Below, piece after piece: positions 3,728 through 14,627 of a stretch of 35,082 nucleotides of DNA (positions are counted from its first letter, which is position 1; each line of letters opens with the position of its first letter). The position numbers and the translations under genes are program-made. The stretch comes from Acidimicrobiaceae bacterium (GTDB taxonomy: Bacteria; Actinomycetota; Acidimicrobiia; Acidimicrobiales; RAAP-2): positions 1 through 35,082 of the forward strand of contig DAHUZM010000065.1 in NCBI GenBank assembly GCA_027306525.1, read 5' to 3'. Below the pieces are notes generated by a model that was not told the DNA's origin, did not search any database, and saw nothing but the letters and a program-made list of their open reading frames with translations.

Positions 3728-4468
3728 GTGGCCGACGAGACCGAGTCTGCCGAAGAAACGCCCGCTCCCGAGGGTCGGTTGTCCAAACTCGCCGCGCTCT
3801 TTCGCCCGAGCCCGAGACCTGCCCCAGCTTCGGCCAATCGACCACCGACGCGTGAGGCGGTGCTCAATCTCGACCACACCGAGCGTCGCATCGGGCTGTT
3901 CGGGGCTGGGCTGGCGGCCGTCCTCGCGCTTGCCGCAGCCATGCCCGGGGTGCTCAACCCCAAGACGACCAAAGTCACCCAAACCATCAGGCCCCTGAAG
4001 GATCACACATGCATCGCGGGCTTCACCTATCAGAAGTCTTCGGGACAGTGCACCGGCAAGGGCACCCTTTCGTTGGAGCACTGGGTCGTCGAACTCGCGC
4101 TCCTGCTCGCCTTCGCCGTGGCGATCTTCGTTGCGACACGCTTTGGGCGACGCGGCCCCGTCGGGTTCACCCTGCTCATGACGGGGTTGGCGTTCGAGGC
4201 CTACCTCGGGATTCTCGGGGTGGCCTTCATCGCTGGCGGAGGGTGGATCCTGATTCGGGCGTGGCGGGTACAGCGCTATGGCTCGCCGACGGCCACGAAA
4301 TCCAATCCAAGCGGCGAGCGGCGCCCCCAACCCACTCGCGCCGAGCGGGCCTCCAGGGCAAAGAAGGCGGCCGGACCCGAGCGCAAGACCCCCGAGGCCT
4401 CGAAGCGCTACACACCGAAGAAGGCCAAGAAGAAGCGACCGGCACCCACTACCCCTCCGGGGTCATGA
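3728..4468 (+). CDS. Uncharacterised membrane protein with basic tail
   Basis: Protein of 246 aa that I cannot assign to a family. Residues 1-45 are polar and proline-rich (cytosolic). A hydrophobic helix covers about 53-74 (RIGLFGAGLAAVLALAAAMP). A loop with two cysteines follows (HTCIAGFTYQKSSGQCTG, a possible disulfide). Then come hydrophobic stretches at about 117-136 and 143-172, and a very basic Lys/Arg/Pro tail (about 180-246). The GTG start lies five bases after CTGGAG. Its last 20 bases overlap the convergent tetR gene. Confidence 0.7.
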   Translation: MADETESAEETPAPEGRLSKLAALFRPSPRPAPASANRPPTREAVLNLDHTERRIGLFGAGLAAVLALAAAMPGVLNPKTTKVTQTIRPLKDHTCIAGFTYQKSSGQCTGKGTLSLEHWVVELALLLAFAVAIFVATRFGRRGPVGFTLLMTGLAFEAYLGILGVAFIAGGGWILIRAWRVQRYGSPTATKSNPSGERRPQPTRAERASRAKKAAGPERKTPEASKRYTPKKAKKKRPAPTTPPGS

Positions 4469-5048
4469 GGGCCGAGCGGAGGAGCGCGAGCACGTCCGCC
4501 CGTCGGCGGACCAGCGATTTCGCGCTCGGCTCCTCGCCGAGCGCGCGAAACACCTCGACCTCGGTCACCATCCCGATCACCGTCGAGTAGATCGAGAGCA
4601 GCAAGAGCCGGGGGTCATGACGCCGCATCCGCCCGGCGTCCATCTCGGCCTCCAAGAACGCGCTCGCTCGCTGCACCAGCGGGTCGAGTGCCGTGATCAT
4701 CTGGGTGGCGGCCGGGGGGCCGAGTCGCGCGGCCTCGCGAACCAGCCCGAGCAGCTCGGGCCGCCGGGCCGCCAGCCGGAACACCGCCCGCACGACGGCG
4801 GCGACCTTCTCCCAACCCTGGCCGGTGCCCTTCAGACCCTGCTCAAAGGCCTCCGTCAGCTCGGCAGCGCTCCGCTCGATGAGAGCGGCGAGCACGGCCT
4901 CCTTGTTGGCAAACCAATAGAGGATCGTCTGCTTGCGGATCTCGAGCATGCCTGCCAGGGCGTCGAGCGACGTCGCGTCGTAACCGCGGGTGCCAAAAGA
5001 GGCAAGGGCGGCATCCAAGATGCGGTCGGACGTCTGGGGCCCGCTCAC
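4449..5048 (-). CDS. TetR-family repressor of the divergent lipid operon
   Basis: Transcription regulator of 199 aa. The N-terminal helix-turn-helix is typical of TetR (ILDAALASFGTRGYDATSLD, then LAGMLEIRKQTILYWFANKE). The rest is the all-helical ligand-binding and dimer domain, with a C-terminal region like regulators of fatty-acid and lipid genes; that resemblance is only suggestive. GTG start at 5048. The 46-bp gap to the acyl-CoA reductase gene holds two copies of a near-palindrome, which suggests it represses both itself and that operon and is released by a lipid or acyl-CoA ligand (inference). Confidence 0.85.
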   Translation of the reverse strand: MSGPQTSDRILDAALASFGTRGYDATSLDALAGMLEIRKQTILYWFANKEAVLAALIERSAAELTEAFEQGLKGTGQGWEKVAAVVRAVFRLAARRPELLGLVREAARLGPPAATQMITALDPLVQRASAFLEAEMDAGRMRRHDPRLLLLSIYSTVIGMVTEVEVFRALGEEPSAKSLVRRRADVLALLRSALMTPEG

Positions 5049-5085
5049 CTACCAAATGGTAGACAGATTCCCTACCAAATGGTAG
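5049..5085. promoter_or_regulatory. Tandem TetR operator
   Basis: CTACCAAATGGTAG occurs at 5049-5062 and again at 5072-5085, each with 6-bp inverted arms around AA; the identity extends to ACA, giving a 17-bp direct repeat 23 bp apart. The pair fills the space between the tetR start (5048) and the reductase ATG (5095), so bound repressor would block both promoters. Confidence 0.75.
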
Positions 5086-5094
5086 ACAACCTGG

Positions 5095-7482
5095 ATGCTG
5101 ATCGCCGAGCGGCTGGCCGGCCGGCGCTTCTTCGTGACCGGGGGCACCGGGTTCCTCGGGACCGCCCTGATCGAGCGGATCCTGCGCAGCATCCCCGATT
5201 CCGAGGTCGTCGCACTCGTGCGTCCGGGACGCCGAAGCGACCCGGGCGAACGGATCGCACGAGACATCCTGCGCAACGACTGCTTCGCACGCCTGCGAAG
5301 CGAACTTGGCGAGGACTTCGAGCGGTCGGTCGCGTCCCGGCTTCACGCCGTCGCGGGGGACGTCTCGACCGACGGACTCGGCCTCGACGCGGCGGGCCGG
5401 GCATTGCTCGCGAGCTGCGATGTCGTGATCCACTCGGCGGCGACGGTCAGCTTCGACGCCCCCATCGACCATGCCGTCGAGGTGAACCTGCTCGGGCCGG
5501 CACGGGTCGCCGAGGCGGTGGCGCTCGCGCGCGCCGAGGGCGGTACGCCTTCGCACCTCATCTCGGTCTCGACCGCGTATGTGGCCGGTGCCCATCAGGG
5601 CGAGACCATCGAGCGACTCCTTTCAGAAGACCGGTTCAGCCTGAACGTGGACTGGGAGGCCGAGGTGCGAAGTGCCCGCCGCCTACGCGAGGACTTGGAG
5701 GATGCGTCGCGGCTCCCCGATCGCCTCCGCGAGTTTGCGAAGCGGGCGCACGATGAACAGGGTGCGTCGGGCACCCACCTCCTCGCCGCGCGCGCCGAGC
5801 GTCTCCGCGATGACTGGGTGCGCCGTCAGCTCATCGATGCAGGGTCCGCCAGGGCCCAGACGCTCGGATGGCCGGATGCATACGCCTTCACGAAGGCCCT
5901 CGGCGAGCGTGCACTCGTCGCCCGGCACGGCCCGGACAGCGCAGCGCCCGTGCCGATCAGCATCGTGCGCCCGTCGATCATCGAGTCGGCGCTGGCCGAG
6001 CCCCGGCCGGGTTGGATCCGCGGCTTTCGGATGGCCGAGCCGATCATCATCTCCTATGCACGCGGGCTGCTGCGCGAGTTCCCCGGCGTCCCCGAGGGCG
6101 TCATCGACGTCATCCCAGTGGACCTCGTCGTCGCCGCGATCGTCGCGGTGGCCGCCCGGGGCCCCAAGGGCCCCAAGGGCGCCGAGACGCCCGTCTATCA
6201 CGTCGCATCGGGCGTCCGAAACCCGCTTCTCTATGGCGACCTCGTCCAGTTGGTCCAGGAGTGGTTCGGGCGTCACCCCCTCTATGACGAGAAGGGCCAG
6301 CCAATCTCGGTCCCCGAGTGGTCGTTCCCCGGGCGCGGGCGCGTCCAACGTCAGCTGCGCCAGGCGACGCGACTCATGTCGAGCGCTGAACGAGGGCTCA
6401 AGTTCGTGCCGTTCCGCCATAGGCAGGCCGAGTGGGCGGCGAAGCTGGAGGACCGTCAGACCCTGGCCGAGCGGGCCCTCGGGTACGTCGAGCTCTACGG
6501 CGCCTACACAGAGACCGAGGCTCGGTACCGTATCGACCGGCTCCTCGAGCTCTGGGGGACGCTCGAGGATGCCGACCGGTCGGTGTTCTGCTTCGACCCG
6601 GCGGTCATTGACTGGCCCCATTACGTCTCCGAGGTGCACCTGCCCTCGGTCGTCGAGCGAGGCCGCGTGCGGACCTCCCCCACGAGGTCGGTCGGAACGG
6701 ACCGCGAGACCCGTCTTCGGCGCGCCGTGCTCTCGGCCGAACGCCACCTCGCAGTGTTCGACCTGGAGCACACCCTCATCGCCTCAACCGTCGTGGACTC
6801 CTATGCGTGGCTGGCCAGCCGGCATATGGGAGCCGACGCGCGCGTCGGGTTCGTCGCCGACCGCCTCGGCGCGGCGCCTCGGTGGCTCTCGCTCGACCGG
6901 CGCGACCGGGGTGACTTCCTTCGCTCCTTTTACCGCCGCTACGAGGGCGCGGCGGTGGAGGAGTTGGAACGGGACGCCTGGGACCTCTTCCACGAGTTTC
7001 TCCTGCCCCGGTCCTTCCCTGCCGGCATCGCACGGGTGCGCCACCATCGCCGGCTCGGGCATCGCACCCTGCTCATCACCGGCGCGCTCGACGTGGTCGT
7101 CGAGCCGCTCCGGCCGCTCTTCGACGACGTCGTCTGTGCCCGGATGACCCAACGCGAGGGCGTCTTCACCGGGCGCCTCGCCGAGCTCTCCCCCATCGGC
7201 GAGGCGAGGGCTCAGCTTCTCGACCGGTACGCCACCGAGCACGGGCTCTCGCTTGACGAGTCGATCGCTTACGCAGATTCGTCGAGCGACCTGGCCATGC
7301 TCGAGGCCGCCGGCTACCCGGTGGCCGTCAACCCCGACGCCCGGCTGGCCGCCATCGCACGAAGGCGAGGCTGGCTCGTCGAGCATTGGACCCGGGCGCA
7401 TGGCGGAACGAGCCGGCTGCTGCCGCTCGGGGGGCTCGAGGCGAGGTCGCTCGTCATCGACCGGCGCCGGGGGGACACGTGA
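5095..7482 (+). CDS. Fatty acyl-CoA reductase fused to HAD-IB phosphatase
   Basis: Two-domain protein of 795 aa. Residues 1 to about 400 are an extended SDR of the acyl-CoA reductase (NAD_binding_4) type: FFVTGGTGFLG (Rossmann loop, residues 15-22), SAATVSFDAPI, SVSTAYVAG and the YAFTK catalytic pair (Tyr263, Lys267). Such enzymes reduce acyl-CoA to aldehyde or alcohol. Residues about 550-770 are a HAD subfamily IB hydrolase: motif I is FDLEHT (Asp556), with Glu558 where Asp is usual; the LLITGALD segment and YADSSSD (726-732) follow. The phosphatase substrate is unknown. First gene of a four-gene operon; its stop overlaps the next start (GTGA). No clear ribosome site precedes the ATG, so a short or absent leader is possible. 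Confidence 0.85.
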   Translation: MLIAERLAGRRFFVTGGTGFLGTALIERILRSIPDSEVVALVRPGRRSDPGERIARDILRNDCFARLRSELGEDFERSVASRLHAVAGDVSTDGLGLDAAGRALLASCDVVIHSAATVSFDAPIDHAVEVNLLGPARVAEAVALARAEGGTPSHLISVSTAYVAGAHQGETIERLLSEDRFSLNVDWEAEVRSARRLREDLEDASRLPDRLREFAKRAHDEQGASGTHLLAARAERLRDDWVRRQLIDAGSARAQTLGWPDAYAFTKALGERALVARHGPDSAAPVPISIVRPSIIESALAEPRPGWIRGFRMAEPIIISYARGLLREFPGVPEGVIDVIPVDLVVAAIVAVAARGPKGPKGAETPVYHVASGVRNPLLYGDLVQLVQEWFGRHPLYDEKGQPISVPEWSFPGRGRVQRQLRQATRLMSSAERGLKFVPFRHRQAEWAAKLEDRQTLAERALGYVELYGAYTETEARYRIDRLLELWGTLEDADRSVFCFDPAVIDWPHYVSEVHLPSVVERGRVRTSPTRSVGTDRETRLRRAVLSAERHLAVFDLEHTLIASTVVDSYAWLASRHMGADARVGFVADRLGAAPRWLSLDRRDRGDFLRSFYRRYEGAAVEELERDAWDLFHEFLLPRSFPAGIARVRHHRRLGHRTLLITGALDVVVEPLRPLFDDVVCARMTQREGVFTGRLAELSPIGEARAQLLDRYATEHGLSLDESIAYADSSSDLAMLEAAGYPVAVNPDARLAAIARRRGWLVEHWTRAHGGTSRLLPLGGLEARSLVIDRRRGDT

Positions 7483-8732
7483 AGGCACTCGTCTTCGAGC
7501 GGAGCATGCCCCGGATGGCCGCGTCACGGCTCGCCTCCCAGCTCGGGTCCGGTCGCGGCACCAGGGTCGCGCCACTACGGCTCGTAGAGACCGATCCTCC
7601 GCCATGCCCGGGCGACGACTGGCACCTCGTGACGCCCTCGCTGTCTGGCATCTGCGGCTCGGACCTCGCCACGATCGACGGGCGCAGCTCGTGGTACTTC
7701 GAGCCCCTGGTCAGCTTCCCCTTCACGCCCGGACACGAGGTCGTCGGCGTCCTGGGCGCCGACGGGTCGGCGGCCGACGGCTCGGCCCTACGCGCCGGTG
7801 CGCGCGTGGTGATCCAACCGGTGCTCGGTTGTCGCGCCCGGCGCATCGACCCGCCGTGTCCGAGTTGCGCGACGGGTCGCACCGGTGACTGCGAGAACAC
7901 GGCCTTCGGCCACCTGTCGCCCGGCATCCAGACCGGGTTCTGTGCCGACACGGGGGGCGGCTGGTCCGCGGCGGGCCTGGTCGCGCACGAGAGCCAGCTG
8001 TACGCCGTTCCCGAGAAGCTGAGCGACGCCGACGCCGTGACGATCGAGCCCCTGGCGTGCGCACTCCATGGGGTCCTCGGTTCCCCGATCACCGAGGACG
8101 ACGTCGTTGCCGTCCTCGGCGCAGGCACCCTTGGTCTCGCGACCGTGGCCGCGATCACCCACCTCTCTGGGCGCGGCCTCATCGCTTCGCCCCGCGTCAC
8201 GCTCACCGGGGCCCGCTACGCCCATCAGCGTGCGCTTGCTCGCGAGTTCGGCGCGTCGGCCGCGCTCTCGCCCGAGCACCTGAGCGCGGCGGTGCGGCGC
8301 CACAGCCGCTCCATGGCCCTGCGGGGCCCGTCGGGAGCCCGGCTCACCGGTGGCGCAGACGTCGTGTTCGACTGCGTGGGGTCGTCCGAGTCGATCGAGG
8401 CGTCGCTCGAGATCGTGCGCCCCCGAGGCACGGTCGTCCTCATTGGCATGCCCGGTCGGGCGAACGTCGACCTCGCCCCGCTGTGGCACCGTGAGCTCCG
8501 CTTGGCCGGCGCGTATGCCTATGGCACCGAGTCGGTGCGCGGCACCGATCGCCCGACCTTCGAGCTTGCAATCGAGGCGGTGGCCGCGATGGGCACCGGT
8601 CGGCTCGTGTCGGCCACCTATCCCCTCGAGCGCTTCGAGGAGGCCGTCGCACACGCGGGCGCGGCCGGGCGCCGTGGGTCCGTCAAGATCGCCTTCGACC
8701 TGCGGGCGACGCACCGAGGAGGACGCCGATGA
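7479..8732 (+). CDS. Zinc-dependent alcohol dehydrogenase (MDR)
   Basis: Medium-chain dehydrogenase of 417 aa. Catalytic zinc site: CGSDLATIDG (Cys59) and GHEVVG (His86, Glu87). The structural-zinc lobe keeps four cysteines (GCRARR, PPCPSC, GDCENT). The nucleotide loop is VAVLGAGTLGLATVA. GTG 7479 is the start because it overlaps the reductase stop; the frame is open earlier but that is reductase-coding sequence. Expected reaction: NAD(P)-linked alcohol-aldehyde interconversion, perhaps on the reductase product or on a polyol or hydroxyacid partner of the next gene. The substrate is not readable. Confidence 0.85.
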   Translation: MKALVFERSMPRMAASRLASQLGSGRGTRVAPLRLVETDPPPCPGDDWHLVTPSLSGICGSDLATIDGRSSWYFEPLVSFPFTPGHEVVGVLGADGSAADGSALRAGARVVIQPVLGCRARRIDPPCPSCATGRTGDCENTAFGHLSPGIQTGFCADTGGGWSAAGLVAHESQLYAVPEKLSDADAVTIEPLACALHGVLGSPITEDDVVAVLGAGTLGLATVAAITHLSGRGLIASPRVTLTGARYAHQRALAREFGASAALSPEHLSAAVRRHSRSMALRGPSGARLTGGADVVFDCVGSSESIEASLEIVRPRGTVVLIGMPGRANVDLAPLWHRELRLAGAYAYGTESVRGTDRPTFELAIEAVAAMGTGRLVSATYPLERFEEAVAHAGAAGRRGSVKIAFDLRATHRGGRR

Positions 8733-10318
8733 GCCCGCGACCGGGTTTCGTGCTCGAGGTGGACGGCTCGACGCCGCCCACGCTGTTCTGGGACGGCGAG
8801 GGGTTCACGCTCGAGCGGCTGCCCGAGGGCAGCCGCATCATCTACGCGCCGGAGCCGCTCGACGCCCTGAAGGACCCGGTCGGGGCCATCCGCCATGCCC
8901 TCGCGCACCCGATCGGCGATTCCGAACCGCTCGCTGCCCTGCTGCGGCCGGGCATGCGGCTCACCATCTGCTTCGACGACGTCTCGCTCCCGCTGCCCCC
9001 GATGGAGCGACCCGACGTGCGCCAGATGGTGATCGAAGAGGTGCTCGACCTCGCAGCGGCGGCCGGTGTCGACGACGTCGTCCTCGTGGCGGCGCTTGCG
9101 CTGCACCGGCGGATGACCGAGGCCGAGCTGCGCCACGCTCTGGGCGACCGCATCTACGAAGCATTCGCCCCCCATGGGCTCCTCACCCAGCACGACGCCG
9201 AGGACCCCGAGAACCTGGTCCATCTCGGGCGCACGGCCGAGGGCGAGGACGTCGAGATCAATCGCAGAGCGGCCGAGAGTGACCTCATCGTCTACGTGAA
9301 CATCAGCCTGGTGGCGATGGACGGAGGGCACAAGAGCGTGGCAACCGGGCTCGCCAGCTACCGCAGCCTCCGGCACCACCACAACCCCCATACGATGCGC
9401 CACTCCCGCTCGTTCATGCACGCGCCCTCCTCGGAGTTGCATTCCTCCAACTGGCGGATGGGCCGGCTCATCAAGGAGAGCGGGGTCAAGGTCTTCCAGA
9501 TCGAGACCACGCTCAACACCGACACGTTCCCATCACAGTTCGCATTTCTCCAGCGCCGCGAGTGGGAGTGGACCCTCAAGGACCGCGTGACCTACGCCGC
9601 CACCGCCAAGGCACTGGACACGGTGCCGGCGAAGCTCTCCCGGCAGGTCTTCCACTCGATCCGAGCGCCGCATGCGATGACCTCTGTGCAGGCTGGCGAG
9701 GTGGAAGCGACCCACGAGCTCGCGCTCGCGAGCGTCTGGCGCCAGCAAGGGGTCGTCGTCGAGGGCCAGAGCGACATCTTGACGATGGGTCTCCCCTACA
9801 TCTGTCCCTACAACGTCAATTCGATCATGAACCCGATCCTCGTCGCGTGCCTCGGACTCGGGTACTTCTTCAACATGTACCGGGGCAAGCCCCTCGTGCG
9901 GCCCGGTGGGGTCCTCATCATGCAGCACCCGACCCGGCCCGACTTCAATCCCGCCTACCACCCGAGCTACATCGACTTCTACGAGCAGGTGCTGAGCGAG
10001 ACGACCGACCCCAACGAGATGCACAAGCTCTTCGAGGAGTCCTTCGCCACCGACCCCTGGTATGTGCACCTCTACCGCACGGGCCACGCGTACCACGGGG
10101 TTCACCCCTTCTACATGTGGTACTGGTGCGCGCACGCGCTCGAGCACCTGGGCCGGGTGATCGTCCTCGGCGGTGACCCCGGGGCCGTCCGGCGAATGGG
10201 CTTCTCGCCCGCCTCGACCATGGCCGATGCCCTCGAGATGGCCAAGGACGTCGTCGGGCCGTCGCCGAGCCTCACCCATCTGCACACGCCGCCCATCTTG
10301 ATGGCCGACGTCCAGTGA
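8729..10318 (+). CDS. Divergent LarA-family (DUF2088) protein
   Basis: Protein of 529 aa related to lactate racemase LarA, whose members isomerise 2-hydroxyacids with a nickel-pincer nucleotide. Family marks: FDDVSLPLPPMERPD, the loop ALALHRRMTEAEL (equivalent of LarA His108), and GGHKSVATG, whose Lys aligns with the cofactor-tethering Lys. The C-terminal part has RPGGVLIM and ends with the family-like GFSPASTMADALE. The usual EPH segment before the Lys reads NISLVAMDGG and is shorter, so one nickel-ligand His appears missing. It is also longer than typical LarA (about 425 aa). No larB, larC or larE is in the window. ATGA overlap with the dehydrogenase. Confidence 0.75.
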   Translation: MSPRPGFVLEVDGSTPPTLFWDGEGFTLERLPEGSRIIYAPEPLDALKDPVGAIRHALAHPIGDSEPLAALLRPGMRLTICFDDVSLPLPPMERPDVRQMVIEEVLDLAAAAGVDDVVLVAALALHRRMTEAELRHALGDRIYEAFAPHGLLTQHDAEDPENLVHLGRTAEGEDVEINRRAAESDLIVYVNISLVAMDGGHKSVATGLASYRSLRHHHNPHTMRHSRSFMHAPSSELHSSNWRMGRLIKESGVKVFQIETTLNTDTFPSQFAFLQRREWEWTLKDRVTYAATAKALDTVPAKLSRQVFHSIRAPHAMTSVQAGEVEATHELALASVWRQQGVVVEGQSDILTMGLPYICPYNVNSIMNPILVACLGLGYFFNMYRGKPLVRPGGVLIMQHPTRPDFNPAYHPSYIDFYEQVLSETTDPNEMHKLFEESFATDPWYVHLYRTGHAYHGVHPFYMWYWCAHALEHLGRVIVLGGDPGAVRRMGFSPASTMADALEMAKDVVGPSPSLTHLHTPPILMADVQ

Positions 10319-11301
10319 AGACGCCGAACCCCCTCGGGGCCATCGGCCGGGCGCGCTTCCCGCTCGGCGCGCCGGACTGGCCGAGCGGGGTGGACCGCCC
10401 GCCGCCGGAGCGCAAGGTCGGCCTCGACTACGACCACGAGTGGTCGCGCCGGTACCCGGCCCGCCTGTTGCGGGCCGTCATGCTCGACAACGTCACGCGC
10501 CCCCTGGCGCAGTTCGTCGCCCCGCGGACCGTCCGGGGTGACGAGTACCTCCGGCTGCTCGAGGCGCCGGTGATCTTCGCGGCCAATCACGCCAGCCATC
10601 TCGACACGCCACTCCTCTTGACCACCCTGCCAGCACGCTTTCGACACCGGACCGTCGTCGGCGCGGCGGCCGACTATTTCTTCGACCGGCGTTGGAAGGC
10701 CGCATTGTGGTCGCTCAGCCTCGCCGCCATCCCGATCGAGCGGGCGCGGGTCAACCGGCGCTCGGCCGAGATCGCAACCGATCTTCTCCGCGAAGGCTGG
10801 AACCTCGTGATCTTCCCCGAGGGCGGCCGCTCCCCCGATGGGTGGGCACAGGAGTTCCGGGGCGGGGCCGCCTACCTGTCCGTGCGGACCGGCGCACCGG
10901 TCGTCCCCGTGTACATCCATGGGACGAGACGGATCCTCCCCAAGCGCGACGAGGCCCACCCCGGGGGCTCGGGGACCGAGAACAGGGGCCGTCCGCTGCG
11001 AAGGGCCCCCGTCACGGTGGTGTTCGGGGCCCCGCTCGGTGCCGCAGACGGCGAGGACGCGCGGCGCTTCGGGGCTCGGATCGAGCGTGCCGTCGAGGTC
11101 CTGGCCCGGGAGGTCGCGACCGACTGGTGGGCCGCGCGCCGCTCGCCGCAGGACGCGCCCGGCGCCCTGCGCGGACCCGACGCCGTCGCCTGGCGGCGTG
11201 CGTGGGCTCTCGGCCCCCCGGCCGAGCTCGAGCGAGCGAACGCCTGGCCCGATGTCCGGCTCGCACGGGTGACCGCCCGGCGCCGGGCGCGCCGGGGATA
11301 G
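10315..11301 (+). CDS. PlsC-type glycerolipid acyltransferase
   Basis: Acyltransferase of 328 aa of the 1-acylglycerol-3-phosphate acyltransferase superfamily. Block I is NHASHLD (Asn91-His92 to Asp97), block III is the IPIERARV region and block II is VIFPEGGRSPDG (167-170). The C-terminal 80 residues are Arg/Ala-rich and less conserved. The enzyme would move an acyl chain from acyl-CoA or acyl-ACP to a glycerol-type or other alcohol acceptor at the membrane. The start overlaps the LarA-like stop (GTGA), so all four genes are translationally linked. It ends four bases from the convergent gatD stop. Confidence 0.88.
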   Translation: MKTPNPLGAIGRARFPLGAPDWPSGVDRPPPERKVGLDYDHEWSRRYPARLLRAVMLDNVTRPLAQFVAPRTVRGDEYLRLLEAPVIFAANHASHLDTPLLLTTLPARFRHRTVVGAAADYFFDRRWKAALWSLSLAAIPIERARVNRRSAEIATDLLREGWNLVIFPEGGRSPDGWAQEFRGGAAYLSVRTGAPVVPVYIHGTRRILPKRDEAHPGGSGTENRGRPLRRAPVTVVFGAPLGAADGEDARRFGARIERAVEVLAREVATDWWAARRSPQDAPGALRGPDAVAWRRAWALGPPAELERANAWPDVRLARVTARRRARRG

Positions 11302-11305
11302 GAAA

Positions 11306-12028
11306 TCAGCCCCGCCGGCGCCCCCGACGACCGAGCGACGCCTCGAGGCGCTCGCGGTGCAGATCGAGCTCCCGGTGATCGTCGAGCGGGGCCAGCGCCC
11401 TCCCGGTTGCCCACGACAAGAGCAGGTCGGCGAGGGCCGGGTTGCGGGCCAGCACCGGGCCGTGGAGATAGGTCCCGACGACCCGTCCGCTGCACGCGCC
11501 GTCGGTCCCGTCCCCGTTGCCGATCCCGATGCACACCCGCCCGAGCGGCGAAGCGCTCGGACCGAGCGTCGTGAGCCCGCCGTGGTTCTCGAACCCGGTC
11601 AGCATCCCCACGCCCTCGAGCTCGCTCTCCACGACGATCTCACCGACCGGTCGACGCCCCTGGCTCTTCTCCGTGATGGCATCAAGGAGGCCGAGACCGT
11701 CGACCGGTGCGCCGTCGGCTGCAGGAAACCGGGCGCCCACGATCTGATAACCGGCACACACTGCGAGCACCACTGCGCCGTTGGCGACGGCCTCGGCGAG
11801 CGTCCCCGCCTCGCCGAGGCGCTCGGTCGCGAGCACCTGGGGACCGTCCTCGCCTCCGCCAAGGGTGTAGAGGTCGACAGCCGGCAGCGCGGCGTCGCTC
11901 GTCGCCTGAATGAGCTCGACGGCGATGCCCCGACGCTCCGCCCGCCTGAAGAGGACGAGGCCGTTGCCTCCGTCCCCGTAGGTGCCGAGGAGGTCCGGGT
12001 AGACGACGGCGATCCGCAGCACGGTCAT
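11306..12028 (-). CDS. gatD: Lipid II isoglutaminyl synthase, glutaminase subunit GatD
   Basis: Class I glutamine amidotransferase of the CobB/CobQ type, 240 aa. Nucleophile Cys91 (LAVCAGYQIVG) and catalytic His189 (GTYLHGPVL) are present, as is YPDLLGTYGDGGN at the N-terminus. With MurT it amidates the D-Glu alpha-carboxyl of the lipid II stem peptide, giving D-isoglutamine. The ATG at 12028 overlaps the murT stop (ATGA); the longer open frame upstream is murT in another frame. The pairing with MurT makes the assignment firm. Confidence 0.93.
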   Translation of the reverse strand: MTVLRIAVVYPDLLGTYGDGGNGLVLFRRAERRGIAVELIQATSDAALPAVDLYTLGGGEDGPQVLATERLGEAGTLAEAVANGAVVLAVCAGYQIVGARFPAADGAPVDGLGLLDAITEKSQGRRPVGEIVVESELEGVGMLTGFENHGGLTTLGPSASPLGRVCIGIGNGDGTDGACSGRVVGTYLHGPVLARNPALADLLLSWATGRALAPLDDHRELDLHRERLEASLGRRGRRRG

Positions 12029-13272
12029 GCGAGCGGGCTCTTGGCCAACAGGTCGTGGAAGGCGGTGTAGTTCCCGATGAACTCGACCGACACCCCGGGC
12101 TGCGCAGACCTCGAGGCTGCGAGAACCGCCTCGAGAGGATCCTTGACCCGGCGGTGCTCGAGCCCTGCATAGTGCAGCCGCACCGAGAGATCCGCGCTGC
12201 GCTCCCCGCTGGCCACGATCGGACGCGACCCGAGGCGCTCGAAGGGGACGTCCCACAGCCACGACGGGTCGCGGCCGTCCGCGACGCGCGCGTTGATCGC
12301 GATCACGATCGGGCCCGTGTCACCGGCGACGAGCTCGAGCAGCTCGTCCCATCCCGCGGGATTCTTGGCGAGCAAGAGGCGAGTCGGGACGCCGCGCACC
12401 GAGTGCACGGAGAAGCGTCCTGCGACACCCTCGACCTTGCCCATCGCCTCGAGTGCCCGGTCGGCCGGGACGCCCAGGACCTCGGCGGCGGCGGCGGCCA
12501 TGACAGCGTTGCGTCGGTTGAACCCGCCGGGGATCGCGAGGTGGATCGTGAACCGTCGGCCGTCTGCGAACATCGCGGTCGTCTCCTCGCCGCGTTCTTC
12601 GAGCGCGACGTCGGGCACGGGCCGGGCGAACCCGCACGAACACGACCAGGTCCCCTGGGCGAAGCGGATCCGCCCGCCGCACGCCGGGCAGCCGCCGGCA
12701 TCGGCGCGCCAGTGAACGCCCGCGGCGACCCAGAGCACCGAAGGGGCCGATCGGGCGCCGAAGACCACGAGCGGGTCGTCTGCGTTTGCGACGACCGTGC
12801 ACGTCGAACCGGCCAGTGCGTCGCGCCAGCGCTTGGCGACCATGCGCACCTCGTTGCTCCGATCCAACTGATCGCGCGACAAGTTGAGCAACAGCGCGAG
12901 CCTCGGCGAGAGCTCCCGCAGCGTGGCTGGCAGATAGCCCTCGTCGGTCTCGAGCACGGCCGGGGCCTCTCGCGGCCCGGACGCCAGCGCCGAGAAGTGC
13001 CCGGCGGGCATGTTCGAGCCGGTCGCGTTGGTCACCACGGATGCGCCGCTCGTCTCGAGTGCGGCGGCCAAGAGCCGGGTGGTCGTCGTCTTGCCGTTGG
13101 TGCCCGAGACGACGGCGACCGTGCGCCCGCGCCCGAGGTCGGCCAGGGCCCCCGGCGCGATGGCGAGGCCGACACGGCCACCGGCGACGGTGCCACTTCC
13201 GGTGCCGATGTGCCGTGAGAGCTGATTGACGGCCGCCGTCGCTTCGACGGCGAGCCGTGTCCGCAGCCTCAT
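12025..13272 (-). CDS. murT: Lipid II isoglutaminyl synthase, Mur-ligase subunit MurT
   Basis: ATP-dependent amide ligase subunit of 415 aa. The P-loop is VSGTNGKTTTTRLL. The central domain holds the MurT-specific Cys4 zinc ribbon (CPACGG, then WSCSCGF), and the C-terminal domain is the MurT type (RLLLAKNPAGWDELL onward). It activates the stem-peptide Glu and uses ammonia from GatD. The ATG at 13272 overlaps the stop of the HAD-PlsC gene, and the stop overlaps gatD. Mycobacteria and other Gram-positives need this pair for efficient cross-linking; here it shows an amidated peptidoglycan. Confidence 0.93.
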   Translation of the reverse strand: MRLRTRLAVEATAAVNQLSRHIGTGSGTVAGGRVGLAIAPGALADLGRGRTVAVVSGTNGKTTTTRLLAAALETSGASVVTNATGSNMPAGHFSALASGPREAPAVLETDEGYLPATLRELSPRLALLLNLSRDQLDRSNEVRMVAKRWRDALAGSTCTVVANADDPLVVFGARSAPSVLWVAAGVHWRADAGGCPACGGRIRFAQGTWSCSCGFARPVPDVALEERGEETTAMFADGRRFTIHLAIPGGFNRRNAVMAAAAAEVLGVPADRALEAMGKVEGVAGRFSVHSVRGVPTRLLLAKNPAGWDELLELVAGDTGPIVIAINARVADGRDPSWLWDVPFERLGSRPIVASGERSADLSVRLHYAGLEHRRVKDPLEAVLAASRSAQPGVSVEFIGNYTAFHDLLAKSPLA

Positions 13273-14627
13273 GGCGAGCGCGTCTCGGTGGCGTGCTCGC
13301 ACCCATCGGCTGGCCGTGAGCGAGGCTCCTCCGTGAGGAGCTCGCCGATCGCCGCCATGAGCACTTCGGTGTTCGCACGGGCGTCTTCGGAGCGCAGCGC
13401 GACGGGAGGCCCGACGCGCACGAACACGTCGTGGAAGCCGACGAGCCTGGGGGCCTTCGCGTCGCGCGGCCAAACGCGCTCGGTACCCCACAGCCCGATG
13501 GGCACCACCGGTGCGCCCGTTGCGGCGGCGAGCCTGGCCGCTCCCGTGCGACCCCGCAGCACGGGAGCGAGCGCCGCCCCCCCACGAGGGATGGTGCCCT
13601 CGGGGAGGATCACCACCACCTCCCCGGCCCTGAGCGCCGCCTCTGCCGCCTGGAGGGGTGCATCGGACCCGCTCCCCCGGTCGACCGGGATCCCTCCGAT
13701 CGCCTTCAACAGCCACCCGAAGGGGGCGATGTCGAAGAGCTCCCGCTTGGCGAGAAAGCGGACCGGACGGTTGAGCTGCGCGGCGACGACGGCGAGCGCG
13801 CACGCGTCGAAGTAGCTCCGATGGTTCGCGGCGAGAATCACGCCGCCACGCCTCGGGATCTCCGAGACCCCCCGGATGTCGAAGCGCGCGTACGGGAAGG
13901 CCTGCGGCCGGACGAGGAGCCGGAGCAGGTGGTAGGGCTCGAGCCCGACGATCGAGGGCACGCCGGGTGGCCGGTCCCAGTGCTCGACGGGCCAGCGCCT
14001 GGCGAACGCGAGTGCGTGCAGGCGTGGATCGGGGTTGAGGGCGTGGGGATGGCCCACCGCCGACAGCAAGGGGAGGTCGTAGACGCTGTCGCTGTACGCG
14101 TGGCAGGCCGTGAGGTCCTCGCCCACGGCCGCCGCCCAGCGGCGAACCGCCCGGAGCTTTCCCGGGCCCCAGACGAAGCCCCCCTCCACCCGGCCCGTGT
14201 AGCGCCCCTCGCGCACCTGGTAGCGGGTGGCGATCACCGCGTCGAACCCGAGGGTGCGCGCGAGGGGGGCGATCATGTCGAGCGGCGTCGTGGTCGTGAG
14301 CACGAGGCGGCGCCCGGCCACGCGGTGCGCCTCGAGGGCGCCCGGCGCATACGGGCTGACCAGGGCGAGAAGGTCGGGGACGGCAGCCTCCGCGGCCGCG
14401 GTGACCTGCTGCTTCGACCACCCGCCGGCCAGGACCGCCGCCGCCCGGGCGAGGCCGATCGAGACCAGGTTCTCACCCAGTCGGCCGTAGAGGGCATAGA
14501 GGGCGCCTGCCCCCGGGAGCCGGCGGTCGTGGGGGACGACCCCGCAGCGCCTGAGCGCCAGATCGAGCGCCGGGCCACTCGGGCCCACGAGGAGGGTCCT
14601 GTCCAGGTCCACGAAGACGGCGCCCAC
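13269..14627 (-). CDS. HAD-IB hydrolase fused to PlsC acyltransferase
   Basis: Bifunctional protein of about 452 aa. Residues 1 to about 210 are a HAD-IB phosphatase: FVDLDRTLL (Asp7, Asp9), LTTTTPLD and AYSDSVYDLPLL, ending with the family-like HALNPDPRLHALA. Residues about 235-430 are a PlsC acyltransferase with NHRSYFD (Asn268-His269 to Asp274) and VILPEGTIPRGG. Such fusions are known in actinobacteria and are thought to act in phospholipid remodelling. The GTG at 14627 is the only reasonable start close to motif I; the frame is open far upstream, but that is antisense to other genes. First gene of the operon with murT and gatD. Confidence 0.85.
   Translation of the reverse strand: MGAVFVDLDRTLLVGPSGPALDLALRRCGVVPHDRRLPGAGALYALYGRLGENLVSIGLARAAAVLAGGWSKQQVTAAAEAAVPDLLALVSPYAPGALEAHRVAGRRLVLTTTTPLDMIAPLARTLGFDAVIATRYQVREGRYTGRVEGGFVWGPGKLRAVRRWAAAVGEDLTACHAYSDSVYDLPLLSAVGHPHALNPDPRLHALAFARRWPVEHWDRPPGVPSIVGLEPYHLLRLLVRPQAFPYARFDIRGVSEIPRRGGVILAANHRSYFDACALAVVAAQLNRPVRFLAKRELFDIAPFGWLLKAIGGIPVDRGSGSDAPLQAAEAALRAGEVVVILPEGTIPRGGAALAPVLRGRTGAARLAAATGAPVVPIGLWGTERVWPRDAKAPRLVGFHDVFVRVGPPVALRSEDARANTEVLMAAIGELLTEEPRSRPADGCEHATETRSP

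Follow-up and report, generated by a model that had tools for sequence, protein, structure and literature searches.

What could be made by four coupled genes that encode an acyl-CoA reductase fused to a HAD-type phosphatase, an alcohol dehydrogenase, a LarA-like protein, and a PlsC-type acyltransferase? These genes lie together in the window, which is the whole 35,082-nucleotide stretch analysed (contig DAHUZM010000065.1), from a draft genome of 2.9 Mb whose closest matches are Acidimicrobiaceae/Acidimicrobiales. The reading preferred here, at a probability of about one half, is that this is a glycerolipid operon whose most likely product would be a 1-O-alkyl (ether) glycerophospholipid, with one hydride-transfer step that depends on the nickel-pincer nucleotide (NPN); both the product and the reaction of the LarA-like protein are inferred.

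In a sample of 296 actinobacterial genomes, all from one phylum and with counts that share ancestry, the reductase-HAD and LarA genes are both present in 70 genomes (73 if LarA fragments are counted), while the reductase is found alone in six, LarA alone in two, and neither in 218. The cut-off for the LarAH14/15/16 family (NF052592) is passed in 72 of these genomes and the reductase-HAD is present in 76; among 61 relatives, 51 have the LarA family. A search with the LarA-like protein retrieved 80 loci, and the order reductase-HAD, dehydrogenase, LarA, PlsC is found in essentially all of those on a sufficiently long contig. This gene order is common to Acidimicrobiales through Rubrobacteraceae. 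Identities between loci are correlated for LarA and the reductase (r 0.91), LarA and PlsC (0.89), and LarA and the dehydrogenase (0.78). Because the genes co-occur and their identities are correlated, the block, judged from its sequences, behaves as one inherited unit, and clustering of the neighbourhoods found no additional gene constant beside the four. The module is almost universal among the Acidimicrobiales sampled, including Acidimicrobium ferrooxidans ICP (G139; PMC3035218) and probably Ilumatobacter coccineus (G172). In Rubrobacter the cluster is almost universal too; the reductase-HAD is present in roughly 24 genomes of its family (f45), and Rubrobacter xylanophilus DSM 9941 (G100) and AA3-22 (G071) both have the cluster (PMC6706694). 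The Rubrobacter reductase, dehydrogenase, and LarA are approximately 40-57% identical to the proteins of the window. The Rubrobacter version does not have PlsC; instead, a PlsY gene (PF02660, 176 bits) immediately precedes the reductase gene, in R. xylanophilus as in other Rubrobacteraceae. In R. xylanophilus a protoglobin gene is also found between the dehydrogenase and larA-like genes (L149:12167-12823; L150). A search of plasmids with LarA matched only a distant classical LarA. Two LarA relatives that are 42-44% identical and have no reductase nearby (L163 and L165) adjoin a class III CoA-transferase, identified by a Pfam match for L165, which may mean that this LarA branch is also put to another use.

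The regulation of the operon is consistent with this unity. A whole-genome scan of the host found only two exact CTACCANNTGGTAG sites, both between the TetR and reductase genes. In 22 whole genomes scanned, the site was found in 15, once or twice per genome, and every site in those 15 genomes is approximately 3.5-4 kb upstream of the larA-like gene, which is the promoter of the cluster. Among 86 loci with a readable reductase start, the divergent TetR gene and a TACCANNTGGTA site are both present in 42, both absent from 41, and discordant in three; where the TetR gene is missing, as in Acidithrix, Rubrobacter, and other lineages, the operator was not seen. The tandem spacing of 23-24 bases recurs in L006, L008, L010, L012, L014, L018, and other loci. 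The regulator therefore looks dedicated to the reductase-LarA operon, and from the co-occurrence of operator and regulator the TetR protein would repress both the operon and its own gene from the operators between them. The original prediction had described a four-gene operon coupled by three 4-base overlaps and had named a lack of co-occurrence in other genomes as what would count against it. The open reading frame coordinates confirm the layout, down to the three junctions, and the neighbourhood comparison clearly found co-occurrence (both genes in 70/296). The further claim of one controlled pathway is supported by the overlaps, the conserved synteny, the co-occurrence, and the dedicated regulator and operator pair.

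The LarA-like protein scores 888.3 bits against NF052592, for which the curated cut-off is 740, and its predicted structure (predicted local distance difference test, pLDDT, 93.5) has the LarA fold in both domains: all top structural matches are LarA proteins, with Z from 22.6 to 41.1, and the best unrelated match has Z 6.4. The closest is the single-catalytic-histidine LarA 9q3k (Z 41.1, 2.2 Å over 453 residues), 9q3j has Z 37.5, and the lactate and malate racemases come next in the list at about 28-31. Asp84, His126 (H108 of LarA), Lys202 (K184, the NPN tether), and His218 (H200, a nickel ligand) are kept, with the exception of one remote homologue, K202 and H218 each being found in 166 of 167 sequences. 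The equivalent of H174 is absent, with a shortened loop in its place, and the position of R75 is Ser or Leu. Since the H174 equivalent is absent, the predicted protein is not a classical racemase, and the second catalytic histidine that classical racemases have is missing from all LarA homologues that carry the cluster. Simple misalignment of H174 was rejected, as close homologues share a short MDGG(H/W)K loop. The naming of the protein as a relative of hydroxyacid isomerases in the original prediction is thus doubtful, and it is of the LarAH14/15/16 type instead. LarA homologues of groups 14 and 15 do not have H174 (PMC12611868), while group 16 was set aside by Desguin 2020 since its NPN residues are not conserved; the proteins studied here fit the description of groups 14/15. 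It has been suggested in the literature that a LarA enzyme with one histidine may move a hydride without inversion.

Use of NPN is suggested by the distribution of the genes for the cofactor. Of the 51 LarA-positive relatives, 46 have larC, 47 have larB, and 47 have larE, while the ten LarA-negative relatives have neither larB nor larC and only three have larE. The host genome has all three on one contig (C158), and in one locus (L141) larE, larB, and larC are directly beyond PlsC. The LarA-like protein is the only Lar_N protein in 36 genomes, and 30 of these keep larB, larC, and larE, which leaves the NPN in them without any other evident user. Phylum-wide the link between larC and LarA is weaker, because other LarA types also need NPN, and nine of the 72 LarA-positive genomes of the phylum sample do not have larC. 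In G005, a genome that belongs to the genus of the window, LarA is absent, no larB passes the cut-off, and larE is kept; the sole larC-like match (C30:72742-73023) is weak and has two TAG stops, a pattern that suggests that LarA and the NPN system were lost together. The conserved residues and the co-occurrence with larB and larC support the use of NPN by the LarA-like protein, and a loss of NPN binding was rejected on the conserved residues together with the co-occurrence of larBCE.

The reductase-HAD protein matches NAD_binding_4 with 183.8 bits, with Sterile just below the cut-off, and in profile comparisons its residues 1-510 match the solved fatty acyl-CoA reductase (FAR) 7eoz at 3.6e-104 over the length of 7eoz. 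It has both the NAD_binding_4 Rossmann domain with YxxxK and a FAR_C/Sterile-like domain, by which alcohol-forming FARs are recognized. Residues 521-744 match HAD-IB/SerB phosphatases; PF12710 and TIGR01488 are over their cut-offs, and TIGR01490 is just under (94.4 bits against 98.3). The TGxxGFxG and YxxxK motifs and HAD D556, D728, and D732 are conserved in homologues, these three aspartates being invariant when compared with motifs DxDxT and DxxxD. The second Asp of HAD motif I is Glu (DxE; E558) in 79 of 90 sequences and Asp (DxD) in 11, including Rubrobacter. The dehydrogenase has conserved catalytic CGSD/GHE and structural Cys motifs. In PlsC, HxSHxD (HX4D) and EGxR are invariant in 132 sequences, as in PlsC/AGPAT acyltransferases.

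Since PlsC is found in one group and PlsY in another, and both families act on glycerol phosphates, a glycerolipid is the likely product. Mixed ether/ester lipids are reported to dominate in Rubrobacterales (title of Sinninghe Damste 2023, as cited in PMC11150832). The bacterial ether routes described to date are ElbD and Ger (PlsA-like). DUF2229, a domain of PlsA/Ger, was found in none of 15 cluster-bearing genomes, with positive controls. In 2023 Sinninghe Damste et al. reportedly described a putative 1-O-alkylglycerol phosphate operon in all five species, including R. xylanophilus, and found it to resemble that of other aerobic bacteria with ether lipids. That operon is probably the PlsY-reductase-dehydrogenase-LarA operon seen here. 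Of the three FAD-oxidase_C proteins in R. xylanophilus DSM 9941, two have Fe-S domains; the third, when compared with solved structures, is most similar to glycolate oxidase (275 bits) and lactate dehydrogenases, with only 84 bits for AGPS. These proteins look like glycolate/lactate dehydrogenases (GlcD/DLD) rather than AGPS, with the limit that FAD-oxidase_C searches match in every genome and cannot alone exclude AGPS. Because there is no PlsA/Ger-type gene and no evident AGPS, the operon is the best candidate for the ether step in R. xylanophilus. The lipid pathway of the original prediction is thus supported, through PlsC, the PlsY of Rubrobacter, and the ether lipids reported for Rubrobacterales; its hydroxyacid variant has less support, an ether lipid being favoured. 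It stated that no characterised pathway has this gene set, and none was found in the open papers searched; however, a FAR, a HAD phosphatase, and an acyltransferase are the core of the elb operon. Literature searches found no link between LarA and lipids.

Several points weigh against an ether glycerophospholipid made with an NPN enzyme. In the literature searched, ether lipids have not been reported for Acidimicrobiales, and A. ferrooxidans, which has the cluster, has been described by iso-C16:0 acids only (PMC3035218). The acyltransferase is not a fixed partner, being PlsC or PlsY by lineage, and PlsY may be a mere housekeeping gene. The operon has no known ether-forming enzyme, and the argument by elimination takes in known ether pathways only. 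Three LarA-positive genomes (G024, G053, and G055) have no larB, larC, or larE over the cut-offs, G048 has neither larB nor larC, and G052 has no larC; the LarA residues are intact in all five, and these exceptions may be draft gaps or real loss.

If an ether glycerophospholipid is the product, the reductase half of the first gene would convert acyl-CoA or acyl-ACP to a fatty alcohol or aldehyde, a predicted conversion well supported by its family. The dehydrogenase might finish or buffer this aldehyde/alcohol step, or perhaps reduce the ketone of alkyl-dihydroxyacetone phosphate (DHAP). The LarA-like enzyme would reversibly transfer a hydride at a secondary hydroxyl adjacent to the carbon that reacts, with retention of configuration, as expected of an NPN enzyme with one catalytic histidine. 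From their families, PlsC, or PlsY in Rubrobacter, would add an acyl chain to the glycerol phosphate, and the HAD domain would take a phosphate off an intermediate. A more specific and improbable proposal is that the LarA-like enzyme itself forms the ether bond by a hidden redox cycle, with the chemistry of AGPS but without AGPS. With NPN as the hydride acceptor, 1-acyl-glycerol 3-phosphate would be oxidized at C2 to a short-lived acyl-DHAP, the fatty alcohol from the reductase would take the place of the acyl group, and the same hydride would return to the face that it had left. A single catalytic histidine would suffice for this, and the presence of PlsY or PlsC, the reductase, and LarA together would be explained. 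If true, alkyl-ether membrane lipids would have a new, nickel-based route that tolerates oxygen.

Other products have to be weighed against an ether glycerophospholipid. Long-chain diols are known in Thermomicrobium and Thermoleophilum, and long-chain 1,2-diols or 2-hydroxy-chain lipids could be made here from a 2-hydroxyacyl-CoA on which the LarA-like protein acts, with reduction by the reductase and dehydrogenase and acylation by PlsC, three enzymes that would suit this route. LarA enzymes do act on 2-hydroxy acids (PMC11770544, PMC7583248); however, the missing second histidine speaks against ordinary racemisation, and it is ether lipids that are reported for Rubrobacter, where the cluster is almost universal, so this explanation is rather unlikely. 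It is a little less likely that the substrate is small, a phosphorylated sugar or glycerate-type hydroxyacid isomerised for use in an acylated glycolipid, as its head group or backbone, with the dehydrogenase a polyol dehydrogenase. The nearest solved structures are single-histidine LarAs with a modelled phosphorylated-aldose-like ligand (PMC12611868), and the best scores of the dehydrogenase are with inosose, idonate, and threonine dehydrogenases, all far below cut-off. Against this, sequence identity to those LarA structures is only about 25-28% and the conserved block has no kinase, transferase, or sugar gene.

The position of an alcohol-forming-type reductase, with its full-length match to 7eoz, beside an acyltransferase would also suit fatty alcohols for wax-type esters or a storage or surface lipid, with PlsC as the ester synthase. 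The normal AGPAT motifs of PlsC and the use of glycerol 3-phosphate by the PlsY of the Rubrobacter version argue otherwise, and the LarA/NPN partner and HAD domain would be left unexplained, making this an improbable account of the operon. A catabolic or detoxifying pathway, for example for the use of alcohols, aldehydes, or hydroxyacids, with PlsC included by chance, is the most doubtful of all. The LarA relatives without a reductase that adjoin a class III CoA-transferase in other actinobacteria would be in keeping with it, but these are only 39-44% identical and are found without the rest of the block, while the near-perfect co-occurrence of reductase-HAD and LarA and their retention in genomes of 1.6-2 Mb favour an anabolic role.

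The features of the locus are collected in Table 1. A gene for a membrane protein without a Pfam match (3728-4468, + strand) converges on the TetR gene; 27 neighbouring loci have a protein family at the equivalent position, a possible further partner. Another small membrane protein is directly upstream of the reductase in eight loci and in L159. On the other side, CobB/CobQ-type glutamine amidotransferase and Mur-ligase-like genes of the MurT/GatD type (11306-14421, - strand) are convergent with the operon. This pair also adjoins the operon in about 20 loci, and was rejected as an operon partner as a housekeeping neighbour present in some loci only.

Table 1. Coordinates in the window of the operon, its junctions, and its putative control region.
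Feature	Position	Strand	Basis
Acyl-CoA reductase-HAD gene	5095-7482	+	Open reading frame; NAD_binding_4, weak Sterile, and HAD domain matches
HAD-IB phosphatase domain inside reductase gene	6751-7305	+	PF12710, residues 553-737; motif I FDLEHT (DxE)
Zinc-dependent medium-chain alcohol dehydrogenase gene	7479-8732	+	Open reading frame; ADH_N (PF08240), ADH_zinc_N (PF00107)
LarA-like gene, LarAH14/15/16 type, single catalytic histidine	8729-10318	+	Open reading frame; Lar_N; NF052592
PlsC-type 1-acylglycerol-phosphate acyltransferase-like gene	10315-11301	+	Open reading frame; PF01553
4-base overlap GTGA, reductase/dehydrogenase	7479-7482	+	Sequence
4-base overlap ATGA, dehydrogenase/LarA	8729-8732	+	Sequence
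4-base overlap GTGA, LarA/PlsC	10315-10318	+	Sequence
TetR-family regulator gene, divergent	4449-5048	-	TetR_N, TetR_C_24
Operator 1, CTACCAAATGGTAG, palindrome TACCA-N2-TGGTA	5049-5062		Sequence
Operator 2, palindrome as operator 1, 23 bases from it	5072-5085		Sequence

The operon gives named candidate genes for the mixed ether/ester membranes of aerobic actinobacteria such as Rubrobacter. If the preferred reading is true, the single-histidine branch of LarA would have a biological role and the NPN cofactor would be tied to membrane lipids, not small hydroxyacids. Any lipid made by the module could be a widespread biomarker, given how nearly universal the module is among the sampled Acidimicrobiales.

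Compared with known systems, the LarA-like protein most closely resembles the single-catalytic-histidine enzymes LarA_Sp and LarA_Bw (9q2u/9q3k and 9q3j; PMC12611868), with the fold matched over nearly the full length and with the NPN lysine, the nickel histidine, and one catalytic histidine in common. Unlike those enzymes, it has a shortened loop without Asn at the His174 position and Ser or Leu as the equivalent of Lys76/Arg, and its genes are in a lipid context while theirs are among glycolysis genes. Its score is over the LarAH14/15/16 cut-off and H174 is missing as in groups 14 and 15 of Desguin 2020; in contrast to group 16, where the NPN residues are not conserved, the proteins studied here keep most of them. 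The name of this family, "NPN-dependent hydroxyacid isomerase", suggests an activity of which no assay was found in the literature.

Among lipid systems, the ether and vinyl-ether glycerolipids of the animal-type AGPS pathway and the anaerobic PlsA/Ger pathway are similar products, and the animal route also starts from an alcohol-forming FAR. The operon differs from PlsA/Ger in the absence of DUF2229, and from AGPS in that the R. xylanophilus FAD-oxidase_C proteins match glycolate/lactate dehydrogenases far better. Beyond the operon reportedly described in Rubrobacter in 2023, the present analysis adds the link to NPN and larBCE, the TetR operator, and the occurrence in Acidimicrobiales and further families. 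Another close system is the myxobacterial elb operon (elbA-E), which is responsible for aerobic alkyl-ether lipids and likewise has a FAR-type reductase, a HAD phosphohydrolase, and an AGPAT-like acyltransferase without AGPS (PMC9131029). Unlike the operon of the window, elb has acyl-CoA synthetase, ACP, and NAD-epimerase proteins, and no LarA or zinc-dependent dehydrogenase has been described in it. The ElbD-like acyl-CoA synthetase and ACP domains that mark an elb operon were found neither in the reductase-HAD protein nor in its conserved neighbours. The kind of system is therefore already known from elb, while the LarA/NPN and dehydrogenase parts are not described for it.

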